From positions 1-36,803 of the forward strand of contig JASLKL010000007.1 of NCBI GenBank assembly GCA_030747605.1: DNA of 36,803 bases. Reading direction: 5' to 3'. The notes under the pieces were generated by a model. The model was not told where the DNA came from. It made no database searches and saw only the letters and a program-made list of their open reading frames with translations. A program made the translations under genes and the position numbers. Numbering within the stretch: the stretch's first letter is position 1; each line of letters opens with the position of its first letter. Shown piece by piece: positions 3-25,086 of the stretch. The DNA comes from Verrucomicrobiota bacterium (GTDB lineage Bacteria > Verrucomicrobiota > Verrucomicrobiia > Limisphaerales > UBA1096).

Positions 3-3000
3 CAGCATGTTGGTGCAAATTCAGCGCTTGCCAAGACTGCTGATACTAATCTTTCGGTTTACGCTAATCGTCGGGGTATTAGTAATCAGTGGCACTTCTT
101 TACTTTCACAAATGCGCCGCCGGAAAATGAGGAGGATGATACAGGTGGATTGGGCGATAATGATGGCGAAGAAAATGCTGATGAACCTGACTTTGGTAAA
201 TACGTTGCGTTCATTACATTCATGCCACCCAACTTGTCTGCACCTCGTCAACGAGAAGCAGATATAGATTTATATGTGTCACGCGATCCGAAAATAACAA
301 CTTTGGACCCAACTGTCCTTGGTGCAGCTTTCAAATCTACCGGGCGTGCTGGTTCCGAGTATATAACTTTCGATGATGCCAAGGTGGGTAAAGATGAAGT
401 CTTTTACATTGGTGTAAAGTCAGAGGATCAGATGGCAGCCGAATTTGGGATAGTGGGTTTATCGAGTAGTAGTCCCTTCGGTGGATTAGATAACGGAGGG
501 AGATTAAATATGATGCCATTACCTGGTGTAATACCTGATGGTTCAGCTTCAGACCCAGGTGGAGTTTCTATTTTCGGTATTTACGTTGGTCAGCCTTACG
601 AAAGTGTCCGTAAAGTAACTGCTGTTAGTTCAATTTATCATCAGGAGATTGGAGATCTATGGGGTCAATTAAGCCATAACCGTAACGCTGTAGTCTTAAA
701 TGATCACACATTAGCAGATCCGCTACCTAATGAACCGTATCCAACAGATTTCGTGTTTCAATACGATGACGATCTGGATATACCTCAAGATTACCGTGAT
801 TCGGCTGGAGTCTTATTCACAGATGGCCCAGGAAGCTTAAATGATTTCAAATGGGAACCAGCGATGGGTGTCTGGCAGTTAGACATGATTGACAGTGCGA
901 TGTCCTTTACTGGTGTGGTGCAGAATCTTTCTCTTACTGTAGATGCGGTAAAGAACTTAAGTTTGGTTGGGAGCCAGGGAATAGATGTAAACCTTGAGCC
1001 AGGTGAAAGTGAGGATTTCTTAATTGATGTTCCTTTCAATGCTACAAACATGATCGTCCAAGTGACGGATATGACGGGGCCAATAGATGTCTACATTAGG
1101 AAAGATAATGAGCCGAAAATTGAACCCGAAGATTGGGATGACCCTGATGATTTTGAACAGAAATATGATAAATCCACGGTAGATGCCGATTCGAGTAAAG
1201 GTGAGTGGGATGGTAGTCCTGCCAGAGGCGAGTTGCACTATGGACTTGGTGATAATCCACCACTTAGCGAAGGTCGTTGGTTTGTTACCACAAAAAACCC
1301 TGATTCATTCAATGAAGTCGATTTTCATCTTCGTGTAATTTTTGAGTATGATATCTCACTTGAAAACTCCATTAAATTGGTTAGCGAAGAGCCTGAGCCA
1401 ATTGAGGATGATCTTCTGACAAGGTCTTTTCTCACGGTAACGAATGATTTTTTGGTTGGCATGACGGAGGTAGGTGTTCGAATTGATCATCCGCGTCTTG
1501 CTGATTTGGATCTGCACTTGGTTAGTCCGCAAGGAACCCGCCTTTTACTTTCAGAAAACAGAGGGCATACGAATATTTCATATGGTTTTACTAAAACCGA
1601 TGTGCTGAAAGGCCAAGCCATAATGGAAGATGGATTTGAGAGCCCTGATAAGTTTTTGATTGATAATTCTGATAAGTTCAATTCAGGGTGGGAGCTTGAA
1701 GAGGGGCAGGTTTTTTCATACATATCTGAATATTTGCCTGAAGCGCATTCGGGAAATAAGTTTATTGAATTGTTTGGAACAATTTCAACCAATCTGAACA
1801 CGGTGGCTGATCAGTCTTATCGCGTTAGTTTTGCTTATGCTAAAAATCCTGATTCAGATGAATCACCTCAAATGCAAGTTAAAGTTGGTTCGGTTACCAA
1901 CCTGACGGTAAAAGCTTCAGCAGAGAACCAAGACAATACGGTAGCTTGGAAAACGCAAGTAGTTGAGTTTATTGCAAATGAAACAGACACTAAAATTGAA
2001 TTTGATTTATCTGGATCAGATGGAAATGGGGTCTTGCTTGATACTGTTTTGGTTGAGGCAGTTCAGCCTGCTACGCTCTATGCAATTTTTTCTGAGTTGG
2101 AAAATCTTGCCCAAGACAAAATAAAATTCGGGAAAGCTCCTTACGCAATAGAAGAAGATCAGGTCGTATTTAGTGGGTTCGAGGGAGCCCAAGTTGGCAG
2201 TTATATGGCTGATGAACAGGTTGATGGCTGGCTGGTGACCAATGAATGGTTTAATGTTAAAAAGTCTAATCAATCTCATAGTGGTGATTTCTTTGCTGTT
2301 CTTGAGCCTTTTTCGCAATTTGATACTGTTAAGTCGGGTGCAGCTATCCTGCGTGATTTGCCTACAGCGGTTGGTCAGGAATATCTTTTGAGTTTTGTTA
2401 CTCGTTCAGATGGTGGTGAAGGAGAGTATGTTTTAGGTGGAGTTATTACCAATAGGCTTGAAGGCTCGCTTACTGTAACGGAATCGATCCCTGAAAGCTC
2501 TTTTTGGATTACTAATAGTATTAAATTTGTTGCAGCTCGATCCTTCACTCCATTTACAATTCGTGCAAATGGTGCGCTTGTGAATTTGGATACTATTAAG
2601 CTAATTGGTCCAGGTCCGCATAATTTGGCAGAGGAGTCATTAGACGTACTGAGAGGGGAACGCGCCATGGGTGAATGGGTGCTTGAAGTGAGGGATCACC
2701 GTGTTGGTCCAGATGACGATTCAGTTGCAAGTGAAGAGATCGATCCTACTTTGGTTAGCTGGTATATTAAGATTATTGGCAATCAAACAGAAGATACTAG
2801 AGTGACCGATGACAAGGGTCGCAAATACACGCGTGACGATACGGCAGACTCTTTGGAAAACGGAAAGAAGGAACGTGGTAGAATTGCTGAGGATGAGATT
2901 AATTATTGGACTGTCGAAACATGTGATGATTCCAAAAAGTTGACGATTGAGCTTTCGTCGATCAAAAAGTCCAAGAATGCTAAAGTTTCACTTTTTGCTA

Positions 3001-3815
3001 GTTATGGTGGTTTTCCTAGTGGTGATGCTTCATCTGATGATTATGTACGAGTTGATATGGATGATTCCTATTTTGCCGAGTTGACGTTGGATGACAGTGG
3101 TCATTTGCCAATCCGGCCTGGTGAGTTGCTTTATTTGTCAGTGCAGAAGATTGATACTAATGCAATCGAGCGAGCTGTTTATGATATTATGGCCAAATGG
3201 GATGGTAACTGCGGGGACCAAGACCCTCCGGAAATTTCTTCGGTTGAACGTTTGACTGAATCCGAAGGTAGTAAATTGGCTAGTGTAGCTGGTGAAGGAT
3301 CCACTAGCTTTGTTTGGAATATTCCTCTTGGAACATCGTCGGCACTACTTGAGCTAACAGGTCTAACTGTCGATGCAGATGTTGAATTGTTGAGTTCTAA
3401 TGGGAGGTATTTAAGGAACAGTATCAACTTGGGCCAGATATCAGAGCAGGTTGTGTTGCGTGAAGGCGATTTTATTTCGAACCTCGATGGGGATTGGTTG
3501 GTTTTAGTGCGCAATCGTGAGTCCCATACGGGTGAATTCACATTGAATACTACTTTGGCTACAGATCAGGGTAACTTGATTTCTTCGCAGACTATTCAAC
3601 TGGATATTGTAAATCAGTTTTGGCCTCCGATTGTTCGACTTGCTTGGCCTAGTGTGTCAGGTGAAAATTATATCCTTGAATCATCTGAAAACCTTGTTGA
3701 TTGGTTGCCAGTATTCGAGAAGACCGCTGGTGCAGATGGAATAGTATTCCGCACTGGACGTTCTTGGTATGGTGATCGGTATTATCGTGTGAAGCAGGTA
3801 TTGCATAGTCGTTAA
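3..3815 (+). CDS. Large secreted multidomain protein: pre-peptidase-like and proprotein convertase P-domain segments, DUF642-like modules, C-terminal 'ESS..L..W' module; 5' truncated by the window edge
   Basis: The frame is open from base 3 (QHVGANSALAKTADTNLSVYANRRGISNQWHFFTFTN...). The listed start at 150 is a TTG with coding-like sequence upstream. P-domain motif VRIDHPRLADLDLHLVSPQGTRLLLSENRG, then GEWVLEVRDHRVGPDD...LVSWYIKIIG. Confidence 0.85.
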   Translation, partial: QHVGANSALAKTADTNLSVYANRRGISNQWHFFTFTNAPPENEEDDTGGLGDNDGEENADEPDFGKYVAFITFMPPNLSAPRQREADIDLYVSRDPKITTLDPTVLGAAFKSTGRAGSEYITFDDAKVGKDEVFYIGVKSEDQMAAEFGIVGLSSSSPFGGLDNGGRLNMMPLPGVIPDGSASDPGGVSIFGIYVGQPYESVRKVTAVSSIYHQEIGDLWGQLSHNRNAVVLNDHTLADPLPNEPYPTDFVFQYDDDLDIPQDYRDSAGVLFTDGPGSLNDFKWEPAMGVWQLDMIDSAMSFTGVVQNLSLTVDAVKNLSLVGSQGIDVNLEPGESEDFLIDVPFNATNMIVQVTDMTGPIDVYIRKDNEPKIEPEDWDDPDDFEQKYDKSTVDADSSKGEWDGSPARGELHYGLGDNPPLSEGRWFVTTKNPDSFNEVDFHLRVIFEYDISLENSIKLVSEEPEPIEDDLLTRSFLTVTNDFLVGMTEVGVRIDHPRLADLDLHLVSPQGTRLLLSENRGHTNISYGFTKTDVLKGQAIMEDGFESPDKFLIDNSDKFNSGWELEEGQVFSYISEYLPEAHSGNKFIELFGTISTNLNTVADQSYRVSFAYAKNPDSDESPQMQVKVGSVTNLTVKASAENQDNTVAWKTQVVEFIANETDTKIEFDLSGSDGNGVLLDTVLVEAVQPATLYAIFSELENLAQDKIKFGKAPYAIEEDQVVFSGFEGAQVGSYMADEQVDGWLVTNEWFNVKKSNQSHSGDFFAVLEPFSQFDTVKSGAAILRDLPTAVGQEYLLSFVTRSDGGEGEYVLGGVITNRLEGSLTVTESIPESSFWITNSIKFVAARSFTPFTIRANGALVNLDTIKLIGPGPHNLAEESLDVLRGERAMGEWVLEVRDHRVGPDDDSVASEEIDPTLVSWYIKIIGNQTEDTRVTDDKGRKYTRDDTADSLENGKKERGRIAEDEINYWTVETCDDSKKLTIELSSIKKSKNAKVSLFASYGGFPSGDASSDDYVRVDMDDSYFAELTLDDSGHLPIRPGELLYLSVQKIDTNAIERAVYDIMAKWDGNCGDQDPPEISSVERLTESEGSKLASVAGEGSTSFVWNIPLGTSSALLELTGLTVDADVELLSSNGRYLRNSINLGQISEQVVLREGDFISNLDGDWLVLVRNRESHTGEFTLNTTLATDQGNLISSQTIQLDIVNQFWPPIVRLAWPSVSGENYILESSENLVDWLPVFEKTAGADGIVFRTGRSWYGDRYYRVKQVLHSR

Positions 3816-3855: not shown

Positions 3856-4671
3856 ATGAAGGTATACGATCATCGAGTTCGTTTAGTGATGGCATGGATT
3901 TTTAATTTCCCTGCATTGCTTTGCCTGTCCTTGTTGTCTGCAGTTCTAATTTCTTGTACTTCCACTAATCACTCACCGCTTACATTAGTATCTCCTCCTC
4001 AAATTATTGGAGCAAAATTCATTGGCAATAAGGCCTGTTCAGAGTGCCATGATAAGATTAATAGTAAATTTCATGGTAGCCCACATGGTCGTTTTTATCG
4101 AGGCGACGAAATTCGCTGGGCATCTTTAGCTGGTTGTGAATCTTGCCATGGCCCCGGTAGTAAACATGCACAATCCGGTTTGGCTATTGATATAGTGAAC
4201 CCTAAAACAGAGCCTCAGGCTTGTCTTAAGTGTCACGTTACCACTCACAGCGAATTTACCCTGCCTCATCATCACCGTGTCTTAGAGGGGAGAATGACTT
4301 GTGTTGATTGCCATGAACCGCATGGTCAAAGCATTCATCAAATTAGCGGTGGCTTAGGAATGCAGAAGCGCGATGCTGTTTGCGTTCGCTGCCACAAGGA
4401 ACAAGGCGCGTCTCATGTGTTTCAGCATGAGGCTATGCGCGAAGGTTGTGTGACATGCCATAACCCTCATGGTTCAGTGAATCGTGGGATGCTGGTTCAA
4501 CGTGATGCAAACCTATGCCTTCGATGTCACTCTCAGATTCAAAATGGGGTGGATCGTGTTTATATTGGTAAAATGGATCATACGGGGCTATTGCGAAGCG
4601 GCACCTGTTGGTCTTCGGGGTGTCACTCTTCAGTGCATGGTTCTAACTTTAGTCCGCGTCTTTTATACTAG
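3856..4671 (+). CDS. Multiheme c-type cytochrome, MtrA/DmsE-like, eight predicted heme sites, possible lipoprotein
   Basis: Seven CXXCH motifs (CSECH, CESCH, CLKCH, CVDCH, CVRCH, CVTCH, CLRCH) plus a terminal CX4CH (CWSSGCH) followed by the DmsE/MtrA-like SSVHGSNFSP. Lipobox-like LISC near the N-terminus. Confidence 0.88.
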   Translation: MKVYDHRVRLVMAWIFNFPALLCLSLLSAVLISCTSTNHSPLTLVSPPQIIGAKFIGNKACSECHDKINSKFHGSPHGRFYRGDEIRWASLAGCESCHGPGSKHAQSGLAIDIVNPKTEPQACLKCHVTTHSEFTLPHHHRVLEGRMTCVDCHEPHGQSIHQISGGLGMQKRDAVCVRCHKEQGASHVFQHEAMREGCVTCHNPHGSVNRGMLVQRDANLCLRCHSQIQNGVDRVYIGKMDHTGLLRSGTCWSSGCHSSVHGSNFSPRLLY

Positions 4672-7031
4672 TGCGCATTCTTTTACCTATTCTAATTTGC
4701 ATTAATTCTGGTCTGTCACAGGAGGTAGTTGATGTGAGCCAATTGGTGAGACCTGTCGATCGACGTGTGGATTTTGTTACTGAGATTCAGCCATTGTTAA
4801 ATCGTTCATGTATTAAATGTCATGGCGATAGCCGCCCAAAAAGTGATTACCGGATGACTAGTCGCGAACTAGCTTTTCAGGGTGGTGAATTGGGAACTGC
4901 TATTTTCCCTGGCAATAGTGAGAAGAGTCCTCTGGTACATTATATTTCCGGATTAGTGGATGACATGAGCATGCCTCCAAAGGGGAAGGCGCCAGCATTC
5001 AATCAACAGGAGATTGCTTTAGTGCGTGGCTGGATTGATCAGGGTGCGATATGGCCGAATGATAAAACAAAAATAACTGTTGACCCATTAGCGCGCTGGA
5101 TAGACCTCGATGGTAGTTCAGCAGCATTTCGGCGACACTGGGGTATAGCCGAGGGGTTTGCTTTTGGGATTGGACAATTGTCTGTCACTGGGAAGACCTC
5201 AAGCGGATCGCGTGTAGAGTTGGATGGGAGATATATTAACGGAGAGGAAGATCATTTGACGCAATTGAGAATTGAAAGATCTGGTCTTGGGTATATTGAA
5301 ACGGGTTATGAGTCTTGGCGTGAATTTGGTTTGGCTAATGGTGGATATATTTTTGGGATTGAGTCTTCACCGTTCAGTTTATCTAAATCACCATATGTAG
5401 ACCTTAAACATTTTTGGTTGTCGGGCGGTTTATTGAAGAGCGATGCTTCAAGTATTGATTTTTCTTATGAGCAACTTTTGCGTGAGGGCAACCTTGGAGT
5501 GCAGCAGTGGGGAGGGGTGACTTTAACAGAGTTTGAATCAAGATCTGTTTATCCTGCAATTAAGTCAGTTGATGATACATTGCATCGCATTTCACTTCGT
5601 TCTCAGCATGAGATTGGAGAAACACAAATTGAGGATTCATTGTCTATTGAGATAGGTGATTCATCTAATAGTCGGAATCATGTGGATTATTTAAATTTCC
5701 CAGTGACAGGTGATTTACCCGATTATCTTACGCTAATCGACAATTCCCATGATTTTAAACAGGGGGCAAATTCATTACGAGTGACTCGGCGTTTAAAGGA
5801 TTGGTGGCATGTTTCAATAGGCCATCATTTCGCCAAGTTCGATGGAGGTGGCAGTCTTGATGTTATATCCATGTCTCCGAACAATCCAGGGGAAGCGCCA
5901 TGGCAGGGTGATCTTAGTAATTCCATTCGTACCAAACAACGTTCTCATTTTTTCAATGTTGCGACTTTGATGAATCCGGTAAAAAATCTTAACTTCTCAG
6001 GTGGTATTCAGGGTGAGTCTACAAGACAGCAGGGATTTGCCAGTGGATTATCCTTGGGAGTTTCACCAGTACGCTATGCTTCTGGTCTAGACCTAACTTC
6101 AATTGAGGGGAATTTTCAGTTGGCTTTCTCCGGACTGAAAAATACGGTTTTGACGGCTGGTACAAGATTACGCAATCAGGAGTCAGATTATCGTGAGGAA
6201 AGTCATATTGACAGTGACTGGGGGGGTGATGGCTTTATGCGGGAGAGTGATGAGAGTGGGCAGATGACTCAGCATCGATTTGGGTTCATCTGGTCACCTG
6301 ATTCCAGCTGGTTTGCCCGTGGTGGCTATAGATGGCGGGATTCGCAAAGTAGTTTCGATCACCCGGTTGATCTAGATTCGGTTAATGAGCAAGGTAATGG
6401 TTATCCTGCTTTTATCAATTTTCGTCAGGACCAAGGCGCTGTTATTGATCTTGGATTAACTTGGCGTGGTCACTCTAAATGGATTCCTAGTTTGCGATGG
6501 GAGCGTTATAGTACAGACTATAAGTTAGGTACTTTAAAGTTCGATGATCCTTGGGGTGAATTAGGGCATGCAGGAGGAAGTCACTTGTCTGGGGAGCATC
6601 AGTCTGATGTATTTAGTTTGACTTACACTTCTAATCTAATGCCAAGGGCTATTATGTCTACAAGTTTGGGCTACACCGATACTTGGGCAGGTACGATAGA
6701 GGCTGAACAGATTGGTCTGCAGCCTTATGAGGGGGATGTATGGTTTTACGTTGATCAGTTTACTTACGTTTTTAATTCGGAGACCGATATGACGCTATCT
6801 TGGTCATATCATCATGCCAACTATGGGCATCATAATTTGCCTGAAACGATTGCTTACGGATTAGAGGCTGAACGCTATGGGTTTAAATGCGGTGTACGGC
6901 ATCGTATTGGCCAGATGGCAGTTTTTAACTTGGAGTACGGTTGGTTTAGTAATAATGAGCCGAGCTCGAATCATGTTAACGACTACAAAGCCCATATGAT
7001 TCTTGCTACATTGAGAGTTGATTTGGACTGA
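4671..7031 (+). CDS. Planctomycete-type cytochrome c domain fused to a probable outer-membrane beta-barrel
   Basis: GTG start overlaps the upstream TAG (TAGTG). N-terminal signal-like segment, then VDFVTEIQPLLNRSCIKCHG...SMPPKGKAPAFNQQEIALVRGWIDQGAIWP (PSCyt1-like). About 650 aa of alternating polar/aromatic, strand-like sequence follows, rich in Gly, Ser, Trp and Tyr. Confidence 0.75.
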   Translation: MRILLPILICINSGLSQEVVDVSQLVRPVDRRVDFVTEIQPLLNRSCIKCHGDSRPKSDYRMTSRELAFQGGELGTAIFPGNSEKSPLVHYISGLVDDMSMPPKGKAPAFNQQEIALVRGWIDQGAIWPNDKTKITVDPLARWIDLDGSSAAFRRHWGIAEGFAFGIGQLSVTGKTSSGSRVELDGRYINGEEDHLTQLRIERSGLGYIETGYESWREFGLANGGYIFGIESSPFSLSKSPYVDLKHFWLSGGLLKSDASSIDFSYEQLLREGNLGVQQWGGVTLTEFESRSVYPAIKSVDDTLHRISLRSQHEIGETQIEDSLSIEIGDSSNSRNHVDYLNFPVTGDLPDYLTLIDNSHDFKQGANSLRVTRRLKDWWHVSIGHHFAKFDGGGSLDVISMSPNNPGEAPWQGDLSNSIRTKQRSHFFNVATLMNPVKNLNFSGGIQGESTRQQGFASGLSLGVSPVRYASGLDLTSIEGNFQLAFSGLKNTVLTAGTRLRNQESDYREESHIDSDWGGDGFMRESDESGQMTQHRFGFIWSPDSSWFARGGYRWRDSQSSFDHPVDLDSVNEQGNGYPAFINFRQDQGAVIDLGLTWRGHSKWIPSLRWERYSTDYKLGTLKFDDPWGELGHAGGSHLSGEHQSDVFSLTYTSNLMPRAIMSTSLGYTDTWAGTIEAEQIGLQPYEGDVWFYVDQFTYVFNSETDMTLSWSYHHANYGHHNLPETIAYGLEAERYGFKCGVRHRIGQMAVFNLEYGWFSNNEPSSNHVNDYKAHMILATLRVDLD

Positions 7032-7061: not shown

Positions 7062-7964
7062 ATGACAATACCCAGCCAACCAAAAGATCCACAAAATCCC
7101 CTCGGTGATCTCGAAGAATGGGATGACTTTGTTAAGGAGCGTTATCCTAAACCAGCTGAAAAAGAATCACTTGTAGGCACTAATCCAGAAAAAACTGAGG
7201 ATCAGTTTCGGAACTATGAAGCTGAGGCTCGAGATTCGGTTCGAGAGTTCTACCGCTTGAACCATCGCGGTCAAACGCTCGATTTTGTTCGCAAGAAAAG
7301 ATCGGATTATCTCCAGTTGAATCGTCGTGAGATGGGAATATGGGAGGCTGCTGAGTTTTTGAATACTTTAGTAGACGATAGTGATCCTGATACTGATCTT
7401 TCACAGCTTGAACATTTACTTCAAACTTCCGAACAGATCCGGAAGGATGGTCATCCCCGTTGGTTTATTCTTGCTGGTTTCATACATGATCTGGGTAAGG
7501 TTTTATGTTTGTTTGGTGAGCCTCAATGGGCAGTAGTTGGCGACACATTCCCTGTTGGCTGCGCTTATTCCGAAAAGATCGTTTTTCCAGAGTACTTTGA
7601 TGGTAACCCAGACAACCAAAATAATGATTTGCAAACTGCGCTTGGAATTTATGAAGAAGGTTGTGGGCTAGACAATGTGCTTCTTTCCTGGGGGCATGAT
7701 GAATATATATACCATGTTACAAAGGATTATCTTCCAATTGAGGCTCAGTATATGTTGCGTTATCATTCTTTTTATCCTTGGCATCGTGAGAAGGAATACA
7801 CGCATTTAACAAATGCTCAGGATGAGGAAATGCTTTCCTGGGTTTTGGAGTTCAATCGTTACGACCTCTACACCAAGAGTCATGGAGCACCGGATGTGGT
7901 GCAACTGCGTTCTTTTTACGAAGAACTGATCGCTGAATTTTTCCCAGCCAAGCTTCGCTGGTGA
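7062..7964 (+). CDS. miox: Inositol oxygenase (myo-inositol oxygenase family)
   Basis: Strong family signature: [117 protein letters not shown]. All expected diiron ligand motifs are present. Confidence 0.96.
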
Positions 7965-8383
7965 GCAAAAAGGATCACAAGGTTGCAGCCTTAATGGAGG
8001 GCATTGAGCAAGGGGATCATGATCCACACTTGGTTGGATATCTACGTTGTTTCAATTGTCAGCAATTTTATGAAGCGCATGATGTTTTAGAGGCACTTTG
8101 GTTGAAGGATCGCTATGGGTCAGATGGTGATTTTTTTAAAGGGATGATACAATTTGCAGGTGCATTTGTGCATTTACAGAAAAAACGCATCAGACCTTCT
8201 AAAGTCCTTTTTTTACGATGTACGACCTATCTGTGTAAATATCCTAGCCGATTCTATTCATTAGATGTTTCTGGCATTATCCGTTTAGCAAAACAATATG
8301 CTTTAAATTTAGATAAAACTGATGCGGATGCGGATGTTTTATTAAAAACAATTCCGTTAATTGATTTTCACAAGGATATATAA
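7961..8383 (+). CDS. DUF309 domain-containing protein
   Basis: GTG start overlaps the MIOX stop by 4 nt (GTGA). [20 protein letters not shown]...[19 protein letters not shown] is typical of DUF309. Confidence 0.85.
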
Positions 8384-18370: not shown

Positions 18371-19840
18371 TTAAGCGAACAACTTAGTGACTGCCTTGGC
18401 TTTAACCAACTCACGAGGCTGATTCAGGTGATTGTATACGATTGTTTCTGGATCAATGCCGAAGGCGTGATAAATCGTTGCCAGTAATTCGCCTGGGTGG
18501 ACAGGATCCTCAACCGGCGCAGAGCCAGTGCGGTCTGATTTTCCATGTACATAACCTTGTTTGATGCCCGCGCCAGCAATTGCTGCTGTGTAACAGTAAG
18601 GCCAGTGGTCGCGGCCATCGGCACTATTACTATTGCCAGAAGTGCTTACGCCTTTTGTTGGGCTACGGCCAAATTCTCCTACAGCGATGACCAAAGTGTC
18701 TTCTAGCATGCCCCGCTGGCTCAAGTCGGTGATAAGTCCTGAGAGTCCGGCATCTAGCATGGGTGCAGCTTGATCTTTCATGCGCTTTGGTAGTCCAACG
18801 TGAACATCCCAGGAATGGTTGTCTGAATTGGCAACTTTTGGCCAGACTACTTCCACAACTCTTGTGCCAGCCTCAACTAGGCGGCGGGCCAGTAAGCAGC
18901 TTTGACCAAATGTATTGCGACCGTAAAGATTACGGGTTGCTTCTGATTCTTGAGCTAGATCAAATGCATTGCGAGCACGGCCGGATGCTACAAGGTTTAG
19001 GGCTCGGTCATAGTATTCATCAAGTTTGAAGTTGGATACTGCCTTGTCTATATCTGGTGACGCATCATTTATTGCATCGCGAAGGCGGGCGCGACGGCGT
19101 AGACGCAACTCGAATACGTCCGGTCGCATTTTTAAATCATCTGTTTTAACACGGTCCATTTTATTCATATCCATGTCACCTCCATCAGGATAGAGATAAT
19201 ATGGATCGAATGATTTGCCTAAGAAGCCTGCTGTGCCGCCTTTGCCAACTACGTTGCTTTCCTGTAAGGGGCGGGGCAGCATTACAAATGGTAGCATTGG
19301 CTCAGTCGTTGGGCGTAACCGAACGATATTAGAACCAAAGTTAGGGAAATCTTTTGGGCTTGGAGGTTCTAGCTGACCAGAAGGACTCACTTTGTCGGTA
19401 GTGTATCCGGTCATCATCTGGTAGATCGCAGCTGTGTGGTTGAATAGTCCATTAGGAGTATAACTCATCGAACGTATCATCGACATTTTGTCATTTACCT
19501 TAGCCAGTTTGGGCATCAATTCGGTAAAGTTTACACCGGGAATTTTTGTTGGGATGGGCTTGAAGATGGACTTTACATTGTCGGGGGCATCCGGTTTAGG
19601 ATCCCACAAGTCTATATGACTAGGTCCTCCTTGCAAGTAGCAGAGAATTACATGTTTTGCCTTGCCCCATCCAGGGCCTCCTACATGACCAGCTTCGGTG
19701 GCACGTGCCTGAAGTTTGAGTATATTGGCTAAACCTAAGCCCATCATACTTGATCCTCCTATACGAAGTAGGTCGCGTCTTGAAACCTTCAAGTGCGGAT
19801 CACATAAGTCCTTTCCTGGTGCTCCTGGTATTGTAATCAT
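18371..19840 (-). CDS. DUF1501 domain-containing protein (sulfatase-like fold, Tat-type signal)
   Basis: [24 protein letters not shown] twin-arginine signal, [79 protein letters not shown]. Confidence 0.95.
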
Positions 19841-19905
19841 TGTTTTAAGTCGATTTAAAAATTAAGTGTCTCTTTTCAGAAAGGCTAACATTTTTATCAT
19901 GATCG

Positions 19906-22900
19906 TCAACGGTTGAATAAGAACGCTGGACTGTTAATTAGTGCCCAGGCTATGTCTTGTGCCGCTGTCAAACGGACAGTTTCCTGTTGAGCTTTGCTTA
20001 GCTCTAATGCACGGCGAAGTTCCGCAAGTTTAGGATCTATAGTAAGTGGTTGTTCCGCTTTTGCTAGGGAAGACTTAAGCTCCTTGAGCTTTGGATCCTC
20101 TGGTCGTTTTTTCTTAGCGTTTTCAAGTTCCTTGTTTTTGGTCGCCAAATCCTTGTCTTGTGCCTTGAAGTAGTCTGTTAGGCGTTTGTTTTGATCGCTG
20201 CTTCGCTTATCTAAGGCGGTTGCTAGAATAACGCTAATATCACCTGGATGACCGATCTCAACCTTTTCATCGGTTGTGACAAGAAGGCGGAATTTCCCAA
20301 TTGAGTGTTTGTTGCTGTTGTAGTTTTGGTTTAGTGAGAAAGTTAGACGTGATCCGCCCTCAGTTCCAAATTTTTCTTTTGGTATAAAGATGGCAGTTCT
20401 GTCAGCTCCTAGTTTCGGGCTAGATGCCCAGCCTTTATTATCCACCTTTCCGTCGATTGCTTTCTTTACGTCGAAATCCTTTTGATTAAAGTCTGACTTC
20501 GCTTCCTTGAATGAAACTTTGGTGGATTTACGACTTTGTTCTTTTCCTGTTGAGATTGCCTTTAGGCCAAACTCAGTTAAAACAAAATTGCCATCGTCAT
20601 TTCGGCCTGGCCCTTTTTTTGGTAGCTTGTCGTCTGCCAGCAATTCAAGACGAACTCCTGTGATGCCGTTAAGTTTGGTGTCGGCATTGACAGTATAAAC
20701 TGTCTTTTTAAGATCACCACTGGCAAAGACTATGTTGCCTTCACGCTTCTCAAGTTTAGTGCCGTTTGTAGCTTTTAAATCACCAATAACTAAATCATTC
20801 CACTTAGTTGTCTTTGCAGCGGAGCCCTCCCATTCAGTCAAGCGTTTGGCTAGTTCATTATTGTAGGTTTTTAGTGACTCTTCTGCCTTTGCTATGCGTT
20901 CTTTTTGTTTCCTGTCGGCATCGGCTTCACGGGGAGCAATCTCCATTTTGTATGCCTCAAGTTTAGTTTTAGCTAAGCGGATGGCATCCGTGCGCTTCTT
21001 GGCACGTTTTGTTTCGATTGGTTCGATTTCTTTCTCATGTTTGGCTAATTGATTGATTGCAGTTTCGTGTTCTAACTTTACGTCTTCGATTATTGTTTTT
21101 GCTGCAGAGATTTCTTTCGGGGTGGCATGACGGTTCAGCACTCTCAGGAACAATTCGTCAACCATCTTTTCATCGTCTGCCATGTCGGATACAAGTTTGG
21201 TAATAGCATTGTCTTTTGAACTAATGGCATTGTCTACGGTTGGTCCACTAATGAGTGCCATAATCGGCCCCAATTGGAGTTCGTTGGATCGCTCACATTC
21301 ACAAGCACTTTCGCGTGCTGGTCGACCTAGATTGCCTAGAAAACCATCGGCAAGTTTTACTCCTGAATCAGGAAGTTGCGCGGCCCGTGTGCCTTCAGGC
21401 ACTCCGGGAAATTTACTTTTAGTGCCAGTTACTCGGTAAATTGAATCAAATAAAACCTCAGCTGGCAGTCGTCGTGCTTTGGCATGCGAGAAGTTAATTG
21501 TGTCGTCTTCATTCCACTTGTTGGTTTTTAGGCTCAATTGGTAAGTCCGGGATTTGGTTATGATTTTTACCAAATGACGTACATCGAAACCGCTTTCAGT
21601 GAATTCCTTTGTTAGCCAATCTAGTAATTCGGGATTACTTGGTGGATTGCCGGCACGTATATCGTCAATTGGTTCAATGATGCCGGTCCCGGTCATATAT
21701 CCCCAAATACGGTTCACATAGCTCTTGGCGAAATACTCGTTGTCTGGGGACGTTAACCAAGCAGCGAAGCTTTCGCGGCGACTTCCATCTTTTGGAGTAT
21801 TGTGTTCACTTGCAAACGGAAATGAAGGTGGTGTGATTTCACCGGTTCTATCATGCTTGGTTTCTCCTTCATTACGATCATATATAATTTCGTAGAGAGG
21901 CTTGGCTCCTTCAACTGCTGTCCCTCCTATGCGTTTATCTCCGGCCTTGTCATCCTTCTTTAGACTAACTTGAGCGAAATAAGCTGTGGTTTCGTAATAT
22001 TGATCTTGTGTCCATCTTTCAAATGGATGGTCATGGCATTTGTTACAGTTGAATCTAGTTGCTAGAAAAAGATGGGTGGTGTTTTCCATAATAGCGGTAG
22101 GTTCTCGTAATATCTTGTAGTATGAGGCTGGGGGATTGTCCTTATTAGAACCGCTTGCAGTAATGATTTTTCGTGCGAACTCATCATAAGGAGTATTGTT
22201 GGCGATCTCATTTCGAATCCATTTACGGAAGGTTGATGATCCGTCTGTTCCTAGAAATTTCCTGTTAACCAGCAACATGTCGGCCCACTTGTTGGTCCAG
22301 TGGTCGATGTAGTTATCACTGCCTATAAGTTTGTCAATTAACTCATCTCTTTTAATTTTGCTATCTCGTTTGTCAGCAGCAAACTTGCGTGCATCTTCGC
22401 TACTAGGAGGTAAGCCGATTAAATCGAGGTAAATACGGCGTAGAAAGTCTTCGTCTGAGCTTAAACCTGATGGAAGCGTCTTGGTGCGTTTCAGCTTGGC
22501 TGCGACAAACTCATCTACCCTGTTGTTATGTGGCATTTCTTTCCATTCAAACCCAGAGCGATTGCCCATAACGGTAACGATTGTAGATGCATAAGCACCT
22601 TCAAATCGTGCAAGCATCGGAGCTTCACCGCGGCGAGCTGTAGTTAATAAGCCTCCTTTATTGGTATTAGCGATGTCAGAGTTTCCGGTTTCTATGAATG
22701 ACTCTGCGGTAACATCACGTTTTTCACCGTTAGCATATGTTGCGATAACACGCATCTGCTGCTTATCGCCAATCTTTTGAACCACAGGGTTCTGTGGATA
22801 TAGATCGATTCCTGTTACCCGAGGCGAATTGATCTCAAGCTTGGCACCATTCGCAATCCAACTCTTCAGGATTTCATAGTAGTCTTCCCCTGTTTTTGTT

Positions 22901-24903
22901 AACTGTCCGCCTTCATGCGGTACAGATGCTGATGATTTAAGCAGGATCAAACTATTATCCGGTGAAGCGATATTAACTCGGCGACTAGCCAGATCATCAG
23001 TGAAGGCTCTAATGTCATAGATCGGATCATATCCGCGCAAAGATAACTTGAATCCATTCTTGCCATCCTTTGCTCCATGACAGGTTCCAGCATTACAGCC
23101 CAACTTAGATAGCACTGGCATGACATCACGAATATAGTCAGGATTAAAATCACCAGTGACACCAGCCACTCGAATTGGCAGGGTCATTTTTTGATTCTTG
23201 TGATAAATTTCCAGCTTGGCTTCTCCGTTCTTAACCGGTGAGATCATGCCACTTTTGCTAACCTTGATTATTTCTGAATCCAATTTGAAAGCAAAGTCTC
23301 TAGATGCATCGTATTTTTCACCGTTGCCTTTCACCGCAGTTAGTAGCATCTGGTTGTAGTCAAATTTTCCGTTCAGGTTAATCTCGGAAGGTTCGACTGA
23401 TAGTGCAATTACATCCTGAAGTTTATCTTCTGCCATAGGGACAGACATAAATGCCCGTTTTAAGCCGAGCGACTTGCTGTCATATAACCGTACCACTCCA
23501 TCTGCGCCCCCTGCGGCAATTGTTTCTCCGTCAGGACTAAATGCAGCAGAATAAACCGAAGTGCCAAGTGAGAGTTTGGCTAATAGTTTGACTTGTTTGG
23601 TGTGATATTCGGCAGAAAGTTTTTTGGAGTTTCCATCCAGTGGTCGCTCAAATGCTTTCTTTAAGGCATCGTTTACACTGCTGTCGTAGTCGGAGCTATA
23701 GAGATGTAGTGATCCCACTCCATTGTAGCTACTGCCAGCGATCATCTTTTTCCCATCTGGTGCGAAGTCAACTGCGAAGATTCTGCCCGGCATTGGCGGG
23801 AATTTTCGAACAAGATTTGAGTTATCGCCGATCACGCGCTTAGTTACACGGGTCAGCCGGAAAATTTGTGGCACTCCGTCTGATCCGCCAACGAGGACTT
23901 CTTCTTTTTTTGGGTGAACTGTGATTGCATGTATTCCACCTTTAAGTGCGCCTGGAGTTATTGAGGTGATGTTATCGACAAATCGTTGTGTAGCCACTTC
24001 GGTTAATTTAACCGCCATGTCGCGTCCAACAGAAATCAAGTGATCTCCCTTGTTGTTCCATACCGTATCTAGTACCCAGTCATCATGGGTGTCTTTGAAC
24101 AGTACTTGTTTGCCGCTACTAACGTCGTAAGCACGAAGTGTAGAATCTGACAATCCAACTGATACCTTTTTATTATCAGGCGACCAACTGATGCCATACA
24201 GTGTGTCGTAACCAACGGGGATCGACATAGACAGTTTTCGGCTACTGACGTTCCAAATTTGAATCTCTCCAGAACGTGCAGGTAATCCACCGGCAACTGC
24301 CAGTTTTTTACCATCATGTGAAAATTTTACTTTTTGAATTCGCTCTGACAATCCAACTAATCGGCCTTCCAAACCAGAGCCATCTGTGTTGTGCAAAAGG
24401 ATTTCATGATAACCAGCAACCGCGATTAGTGAGCCGTCTGGGGAATAATCAATTGAGGAGATGACTGGAGGCAAGCTGTACACGGGTGGATTATCCATGT
24501 TGTAGAGTTGCTTTGCACTTGCCGGTGTGTCATCCACCGCGCCTTCAATTACCCATCGAGTAATCAAGTCGATCTGGTCTTTAGGCAATGGATCTTCCTT
24601 TTGAGGCATCTCTGCTTCGCCGTCGATCGGGGTTATTAGTGTAATCAAATGACTCTCATCTGGCTTTCCAGGAATAATCGCAACCTCTTCACTGTCTCCT
24701 CCCTTCAGGAGTGCTTTGAAGGTCGTCATTACATAGTCACCATTGGCTTTGGCAGGTTGGTGGCACCCGTGGCATGAGGCCTGAAAAATGGGGCGAATGT
24801 CGTTGTAAAAACTAACTTTTTTGGCCTTATCTTCCTCGGCTTGGATAGAAGATGTCATCCAAAACAAAGCGAAAGGTATAAACTGAAAAAATCTTTGTCT
24901 CAT
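19906..24903 (-). CDS. Giant PSCyt1 / WD40 / bacterial Ig-like / DUF1549 / DUF1553 protein
   Basis: SFYNDIRPIFQASCHGCHQPAKANGDYVMTT, WD40-like repeats (SPDGSLIAVAGYHEILLHN, FSPDGETIAAGGADGVVRLYDS), two Ig-like segments, CNAGTCHG, DUF1549 (RNCxxKCHDHPFERWTQDQYY-like: FNCNKCHDHPFERWTQDQYY) and DUF1553 (AAWLTSPDNEYFAKSYVNRIW). I prefer the start at 24903 (MRQRFFQFIPFALFWMTSSIQAEE signal peptide, AGGA upstream) over the ORF start at 24999. Confidence 0.92.
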   Translation of the reverse strand: MRQRFFQFIPFALFWMTSSIQAEEDKAKKVSFYNDIRPIFQASCHGCHQPAKANGDYVMTTFKALLKGGDSEEVAIIPGKPDESHLITLITPIDGEAEMPQKEDPLPKDQIDLITRWVIEGAVDDTPASAKQLYNMDNPPVYSLPPVISSIDYSPDGSLIAVAGYHEILLHNTDGSGLEGRLVGLSERIQKVKFSHDGKKLAVAGGLPARSGEIQIWNVSSRKLSMSIPVGYDTLYGISWSPDNKKVSVGLSDSTLRAYDVSSGKQVLFKDTHDDWVLDTVWNNKGDHLISVGRDMAVKLTEVATQRFVDNITSITPGALKGGIHAITVHPKKEEVLVGGSDGVPQIFRLTRVTKRVIGDNSNLVRKFPPMPGRIFAVDFAPDGKKMIAGSSYNGVGSLHLYSSDYDSSVNDALKKAFERPLDGNSKKLSAEYHTKQVKLLAKLSLGTSVYSAAFSPDGETIAAGGADGVVRLYDSKSLGLKRAFMSVPMAEDKLQDVIALSVEPSEINLNGKFDYNQMLLTAVKGNGEKYDASRDFAFKLDSEIIKVSKSGMISPVKNGEAKLEIYHKNQKMTLPIRVAGVTGDFNPDYIRDVMPVLSKLGCNAGTCHGAKDGKNGFKLSLRGYDPIYDIRAFTDDLASRRVNIASPDNSLILLKSSASVPHEGGQLTKTGEDYYEILKSWIANGAKLEINSPRVTGIDLYPQNPVVQKIGDKQQMRVIATYANGEKRDVTAESFIETGNSDIANTNKGGLLTTARRGEAPMLARFEGAYASTIVTVMGNRSGFEWKEMPHNNRVDEFVAAKLKRTKTLPSGLSSDEDFLRRIYLDLIGLPPSSEDARKFAADKRDSKIKRDELIDKLIGSDNYIDHWTNKWADMLLVNRKFLGTDGSSTFRKWIRNEIANNTPYDEFARKIITASGSNKDNPPASYYKILREPTAIMENTTHLFLATRFNCNKCHDHPFERWTQDQYYETTAYFAQVSLKKDDKAGDKRIGGTAVEGAKPLYEIIYDRNEGETKHDRTGEITPPSFPFASEHNTPKDGSRRESFAAWLTSPDNEYFAKSYVNRIWGYMTGTGIIEPIDDIRAGNPPSNPELLDWLTKEFTESGFDVRHLVKIITKSRTYQLSLKTNKWNEDDTINFSHAKARRLPAEVLFDSIYRVTGTKSKFPGVPEGTRAAQLPDSGVKLADGFLGNLGRPARESACECERSNELQLGPIMALISGPTVDNAISSKDNAITKLVSDMADDEKMVDELFLRVLNRHATPKEISAAKTIIEDVKLEHETAINQLAKHEKEIEPIETKRAKKRTDAIRLAKTKLEAYKMEIAPREADADRKQKERIAKAEESLKTYNNELAKRLTEWEGSAAKTTKWNDLVIGDLKATNGTKLEKREGNIVFASGDLKKTVYTVNADTKLNGITGVRLELLADDKLPKKGPGRNDDGNFVLTEFGLKAISTGKEQSRKSTKVSFKEAKSDFNQKDFDVKKAIDGKVDNKGWASSPKLGADRTAIFIPKEKFGTEGGSRLTFSLNQNYNSNKHSIGKFRLLVTTDEKVEIGHPGDISVILATALDKRSSDQNKRLTDYFKAQDKDLATKNKELENAKKKRPEDPKLKELKSSLAKAEQPLTIDPKLAELRRALELSKAQQETVRLTAAQDIAWALINSPAFLFNR

Positions 24904-25086
24904 TAAGTTTTCCTTAAAATACAGCATTGTTGCAGGCATCCACGCGTGATTAGTTACAATTGCTTCGGAAAATCGTACATATTCCAGTGTTTTTTTCAAT
25001 AAAAATCAAAGGTTTTGGAAGTTGAGCAAATCAATTAATCCAATAAAAAAAGATTAAGAAACCCCGATTTATCAATTGTTATTTAA

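Follow-up and report, generated by a model that had tools for sequence, protein, structure and literature searches.

A candidate Verrucomicrobial porin–cytochrome conduit in which the predicted barrel carries a fused PSCyt1 heme domain

The gene pair and its setting

The stretch of DNA that we analysed (36,803 nucleotides in all, referred to below as the window) represents a single contig from the marine Verrucomicrobia MAG G000, which is 74% complete. It contains two adjoining genes for which the ORF coordinates and the stop/start overlap given in the original prediction were both confirmed in the sequence, and whose features are as follows.

3856..4671, forward strand: octaheme c-type cytochrome of lipoprotein type, MtrA/DmsE-like, 271 aa (ORF)
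3946..3957, forward strand: lipobox-like LISC of the cytochrome (sequence; cysteine conserved in relatives)
4606..4626, forward strand: eighth heme site, CX4CH (CWSSGCH), at the alignment position of the final CXXCH in decaheme DmsE-type proteins
4669..4673, forward strand: TAGTG, the stop/start overlap of the cytochrome and fused genes (sequence)
4671..7031, forward strand: fused protein of 786 aa with signal peptide, PSCyt1 domain and predicted 26-strand barrel (Pfam, AlphaFold2, Foldseek)
4809..4985, forward strand: PSCyt1 domain PF07635, residues 47-105 (E 5.6e-15)
4809..4823, forward strand: CXXCH (CIKCH) of the fused domain, present in 55 of 55 fused relatives, a set selected by CXXCH
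4971..4973, forward strand: MPP-motif Met, the presumed sixth ligand of the heme (M-P-P invariant in 55 of 55)
5070..7028, forward strand: barrel region, residues 134-785, 26 predicted strands (DSSP on the model; a barrel-only query found homologues in 66 of 97 related genomes)

Upstream of the pair, a truncated ORF at 3-3815 encodes a large secreted protein that carries proprotein-convertase P-domains together with a DUF642/choice-of-anchor C domain, and stops 40 bp before the cytochrome gene. Several members of the genus also have large ORFs just upstream of the pair, one of them (L051) with a subtilase-like motif, and the upstream ORF is possibly co-transcribed with the pair. Downstream, at 7062-8383, lie genes for a myo-inositol oxygenase (MIOX) and a DUF309 protein, and genes with similar starts follow the pair in most, not all, members of the genus. 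The window also encodes a prepilin-like protein with the N-terminal methylation motif PF07963 (12862-13620, reverse strand), and another multiheme cytochrome of approx. 685 aa is found elsewhere in the same genome (L010:901-2958, reverse strand).

The octaheme cytochrome and the fused barrel protein

The first protein had been described as an eight-heme MtrA/DmsE-like cytochrome. Both the number of heme sites and the homology with MtrA held, with the qualification that only seven of the sites are CXXCH, the last being CX4CH, a site that is a plain CXXCH in two relatives (L092 and L167). As a single sequence in phmmer the cytochrome matched the MtrA chain 6r2q_A with an E value of 1.9e-23, and the profile of its family matched the same chain at 1.2e-50. 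Foldseek of the cytochrome model, which is weak (pLDDT 66), returned this chain as its sole significant match (E 4.6e-6); the name ‘Cystathionine beta-synthase’ attached to the octaheme's match is merely how the PDB file labels the molecule, and the matched chain is MtrA in 6R2Q. Two NCBIfam families, TIGR03508 (1.2e-39) and NF041028 (3.3e-44), also matched, but both below their curated cut-offs (136 bits against 192 for TIGR03508), which indicates that the cytochrome is related to these decaheme families without belonging to them. Judged by sequence comparison, it is a shortened relative of MtrA. Alignment with decaheme DmsE-type relatives places the loss internally, at the heme 3-4 pair, and so rules out a loss of N-terminal hemes. 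Apart from those in the heme motifs, exactly eight histidine residues are invariant in the octahemes of fused and unfused systems alike, i.e. one distal ligand per heme, which fits eight bis-His hemes. Of the octaheme ORFs whose N-terminus is intact, all 84 have a lipobox-type cysteine ahead of the first heme, in keeping with the lipobox-like reading of LISC, and the strict pattern is present in 73 of these, the remainder having mostly L-N-S-C or similar.

The second ORF starts with GTG and encodes a short signal peptide followed by the PSCyt1-like CXXCH domain that had been proposed, which Pfam recognizes as PF07635 well above the gathering score (56.1 against 22 bits). The 55 fused domains that we compared represent approx. 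50 distinct loci, as several records repeat, and omega values of 0.09–0.26 indicate purifying selection in both domains of the fused gene. More than 20 other PSCyt1-domain matches were found in the genome, and these are a likely source of the fused domain. Within the window, positions 18371-24999 hold a DUF1501 gene and the gene for a 1697-aa PSCyt1-WD40-PSCyt2-PSD1 protein, a canonical PVC gene pair.

The remaining 650 or so residues, a probable β-barrel in the original prediction, were modelled by AlphaFold2 from 24 sequences as a large barrel of 26 β-strands, with a mean pLDDT of 82 (above 90 in the majority of strands, below 50 in the PSCyt1 heme loop) and a pTM of 0.72. The top fold match in the PDB was MtrB (6r2q_B, E 7e-14, TM 0.68 on target), followed by TonB-dependent receptors and similar barrels (E approx. 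1e-9, TM on target mostly 0.4–0.5). MtrB has 26 strands of which the first four are shorter (PMC7198977), and in our model the first strands are likewise the shorter ones. Adjacent genes thus independently find their best matches in two subunits, MtrA and MtrB, of one crystal structure, 6R2Q, and the barrel is predicted to have the MtrB architecture. At the sequence level homology with MtrB is marginal, and for the window protein itself falls short of significance: the barrel part of the window protein matched no Pfam or NCBIfam family, including the MtrB/PioB-type models PF11854, TIGR03509 and NF041027, whereas among 21 relatives PF11854 matched two (best 3.6e-6), NF041027 four and TIGR03509, weakly, one. 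The non-aromatic C-terminus (RVDLD), noted from the outset as a caveat, stands as an observation and is a shared feature of the fused clade, whose members typically close with a hydrophobic residue or Trp and then a single polar residue or a Pro (...LD, LN or WP, for example), whereas unfused sister barrels end in ...YRF or similar.

Counted from the model, loops after odd-numbered strands average 10.6 residues and turns after even-numbered strands 3.4 residues, a pattern which suggests that both termini of the barrel are periplasmic. As the fused domain is N-terminal to strand 1, it most likely lies on the periplasmic face, and the model topology thus speaks against the earlier suggestion of a terminal extracellular relay or of a plug on either face of the membrane.

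Relatives and history of the fusion

Loci of relatives were gathered with the barrel-only query and with the cytochrome alignment. The cytochrome and barrel genes are syntenic in relatives across one Verrucomicrobia order, and wherever the contig reaches far enough the octaheme almost without exception adjoins the barrel directly. Two types were distinguished. In the fused type, the CXXCH lies approx. 726–777 residues from the C-terminus and the octaheme gene directly upstream, and no 9-heme cytochrome adjoins it in the neighbourhoods read. The unfused type (approx. 700–780 aa) has no CXXCH, again has the octaheme upstream, and often has a 9-heme cytochrome too, which in locus L096 matches the MtrC/MtrF domains (PF22113, 1.7e-11). 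Outside the genus, 33 of the 76 sampled genomes of the order carried the fused type, which was also read in the genus itself. A survey of 390 phylum-wide genomes, very few of them from the order, yielded no fused gene beyond the order; its top outside match (G223) proved unfused on reading, and the other outside matches were judged by ORF length only. A chance pairing is ruled out by the recurrence of the pair across the order together with purifying selection on both domains of the fused gene, and a chance fusion or assembly error by recurrence in approx. 50 loci.

At least nine genomes carry both a fused and an unfused system. This bears on the possibility that the fused domain is extracellular and provides the terminal heme in place of MtrC, which would account for the missing 9-heme neighbour in the fused clade when unfused relatives often have one. 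We consider this very unlikely, given that the predicted topology of the barrel leaves its N-terminal end on the periplasmic side, that the lumen would be occupied by the octaheme and that both systems are retained together in these genomes; a tethered periplasmic relay is more likely than an MtrC substitute.

Unfused loci occur in other settings as well. That of L075 (3638-12689) encodes 9-heme, octaheme, barrel, 109-aa monoheme, NrfH-like 6-heme and 11-heme proteins, and this extended cluster looks like a complete quinol-to-surface route. Two loci of Candidatus Scalindua (anammox Planctomycetes; L103 and L108) have an unfused octaheme and barrel with an adjoining tetraheme cytochrome, and a similar tetraheme protein is found at L182, from another class of the window's phylum.

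In the careful barrel tree, from which L054 was excluded as its start lies at a contig edge, all fused barrels fall under one node (100/99), with the unfused L096 and L182 branching just below it. One further unfused barrel, L167, is nested inside the fused clade beside L172 (100/99); it truly has no PSCyt1 domain, but has kept the octaheme and barrel. The cytochrome tree splits in the same way (76 and 95), and this agreement indicates that both genes were inherited together. As read from these trees, the fusion is a single gain from unfused relatives followed by one secondary loss, in L167.

The shared history also bears on the possibility that the barrel serves as a porin for substrates or as a receptor, to which the octaheme is unrelated. 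Such a role would suit a barrel with no strong sequence family match, but we regard it as extremely unlikely in view of the near-universal adjacency of the octaheme, the agreement of the main splits between the two trees and the position of MtrB ahead of the TonB receptors in the fold search, by both E value and TM score. More plausible, although still improbable, is a fused domain that stands outside the electron path as a plug or as an assembly or quality-control module of the barrel: N-terminal plugs are common in large barrels, and L167 dropped the domain yet keeps its octaheme and barrel. Against this reading, all 55 fused members retain both the CXXCH and the methionine of MPP, under the low omega values given above, and a conserved sixth ligand is not needed by a structural plug. 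A redox role for the domain, as a periplasmic relay, is the reading that we carry forward.

Proposed route and comparison with known systems

The pair is a candidate porin–cytochrome conduit of MtrAB/PioAB architecture, as originally proposed, on the strength of the MtrA homology of the cytochrome and the MtrB fold of the barrel model; also as noted there, no separate MtrC-like protein accompanies it. In the reading that we consider probable, the two genes would encode a trans-outer-membrane electron conduit in which the lipid-anchored octaheme, an MtrA relative by homology, would thread the modelled 26-strand barrel, and the PSCyt1 domain, with a His/Met heme, would sit at the periplasmic mouth, as the topology suggests. 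The domain may then act as a tethered relay that links the bis-His wire, of low potential, to soluble carriers in the periplasm, with inward flow the likelier direction.

His/Met hemes are generally of higher potential than bis-His hemes, so that flow from the wire to PSCyt1 would be downhill. No NapC/NrfH quinol dehydrogenase was found in 21 genomes of the genus, which are incomplete MAGs, nor any full MtrC-like 9-heme protein, only short weak matches, whereas the heme-copper oxidase subunit COX1 is present in 15 of the 21. Together these observations favour uptake, and, judged from gene absence in incomplete MAGs and from generic His/Met and bis-His potentials, we lean slightly towards an inward path, which would run from an extracellular donor through the octaheme and PSCyt1 to a periplasmic cytochrome c and a terminal oxidase. 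The same complex might instead export electrons to humics or metals, with the PSCyt1 heme as the point of entry from periplasmic carriers. Verrucomicrobial porin–multiheme clusters have been proposed for humic reduction (He et al. 2017, PMC5615132), unfused sisters often have the 9-heme cytochrome beside them (MtrC/MtrF-like in L096) and the L075 cluster encodes an NrfH-like cytochrome. However, the genus has neither NapC/NrfH nor an MtrC-like protein, and a His/Met entry heme, normally more oxidizing than a bis-His wire, would impose an uphill step, so we think export rather unlikely. Returning to uptake, we tentatively propose a nine-heme, two-protein conduit in which a low-potential wire would deliver electrons to a tethered, high-potential periplasmic PSCyt1, making the barrel a directional uptake port.

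The unfused sisters, the single gain and the later loss amount to a natural experiment on the role of a periplasmic relay. The fused form spans one Verrucomicrobia order, some of whose members are marine and have heme-copper oxidases, and in which extracellular electron exchange has been little studied. We found no description of a PSCyt1-fused barrel in the open-licence literature, which is weak evidence of absence.

A porin–multiheme complex with an eight-heme cytochrome was, however, proposed in Verrucomicrobia by He et al. 2017 (PMC5615132). In that account, the clusters are defined by an eight-heme periplasmic cytochrome and a barrel of at least 20 predicted strands, a definition into which the window pair falls, and which also fits the unfused sister family (Opitutaceae, Limisphaera and others); the loci of Opitutaceae type that the cytochrome alignment brought up are homologues without the fusion. 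The text of the paper mentions no heme domain on the porin, which by description sets the window pair apart, and several of the clusters have an extracellular multiheme protein, unlike the fused type. The window pair does not stand alone, but belongs to the fused branch of a broader family of Verrucomicrobial octaheme/barrel systems.

Like the window pair, MtrAB, PioAB and MtoAB combine an MtrA-family cytochrome with an adjoining 26-strand barrel, and Pio and Mto likewise have no MtrC partner. Their cytochromes have ten heme sites, whereas that of the window has eight, a lipobox and the CX4CH site, and the window barrel differs in its fused PSCyt1 domain and in a sequence that is barely related. 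In the Mto and Pio operons the periplasmic partner is a protein of its own, the cytochrome MtoD and the HiPIP PioC respectively (PMC10654088), of which the fused PSCyt1 would be the tethered equivalent; known versions thus keep the periplasmic relay as a separate protein, and here it would be fused to the barrel. GSU2203/GSU2204 (NF041028/NF041027) also pair an MtrA-like cytochrome with an MtrB/PioB-like barrel having one CXXCH, but in the NF041027 member L183 (Desulfuromonas, 565 bits) this motif lies inside the protein (offset 236 of a 645-aa frame) and the N-terminus carries no CXXCH domain, whereas in the window protein the CXXCH is N-terminal. The PSCyt1 proteins of PVC bacteria share the domain family (PF07635), but usually occur with PSCyt2/PSD1/DUF1501 genes, as at 18371-24999, and have no barrel.

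Cyc2 resembles the fused protein in having an N-terminal monoheme domain, predicted to be periplasmic, followed by a barrel, but has 16 strands and only one heme, and lacks a partner that supplies a multiheme wire (PMC8406198), whereas the fused protein has 26 predicted strands, PSCyt1 as its heme domain and an octaheme partner gene. Cyc2-like fusions have been suggested to precede the Mto/Pio complexes (PMC10654088), an idea on which the present case bears, as here the fusion arose when the barrel was already large and had its wire. This candidate conduit would thus combine two designs until now found separately: the wire of many hemes within a 26-strand barrel, as in MtrAB, and the fusion of heme domain and barrel, as in Cyc2.
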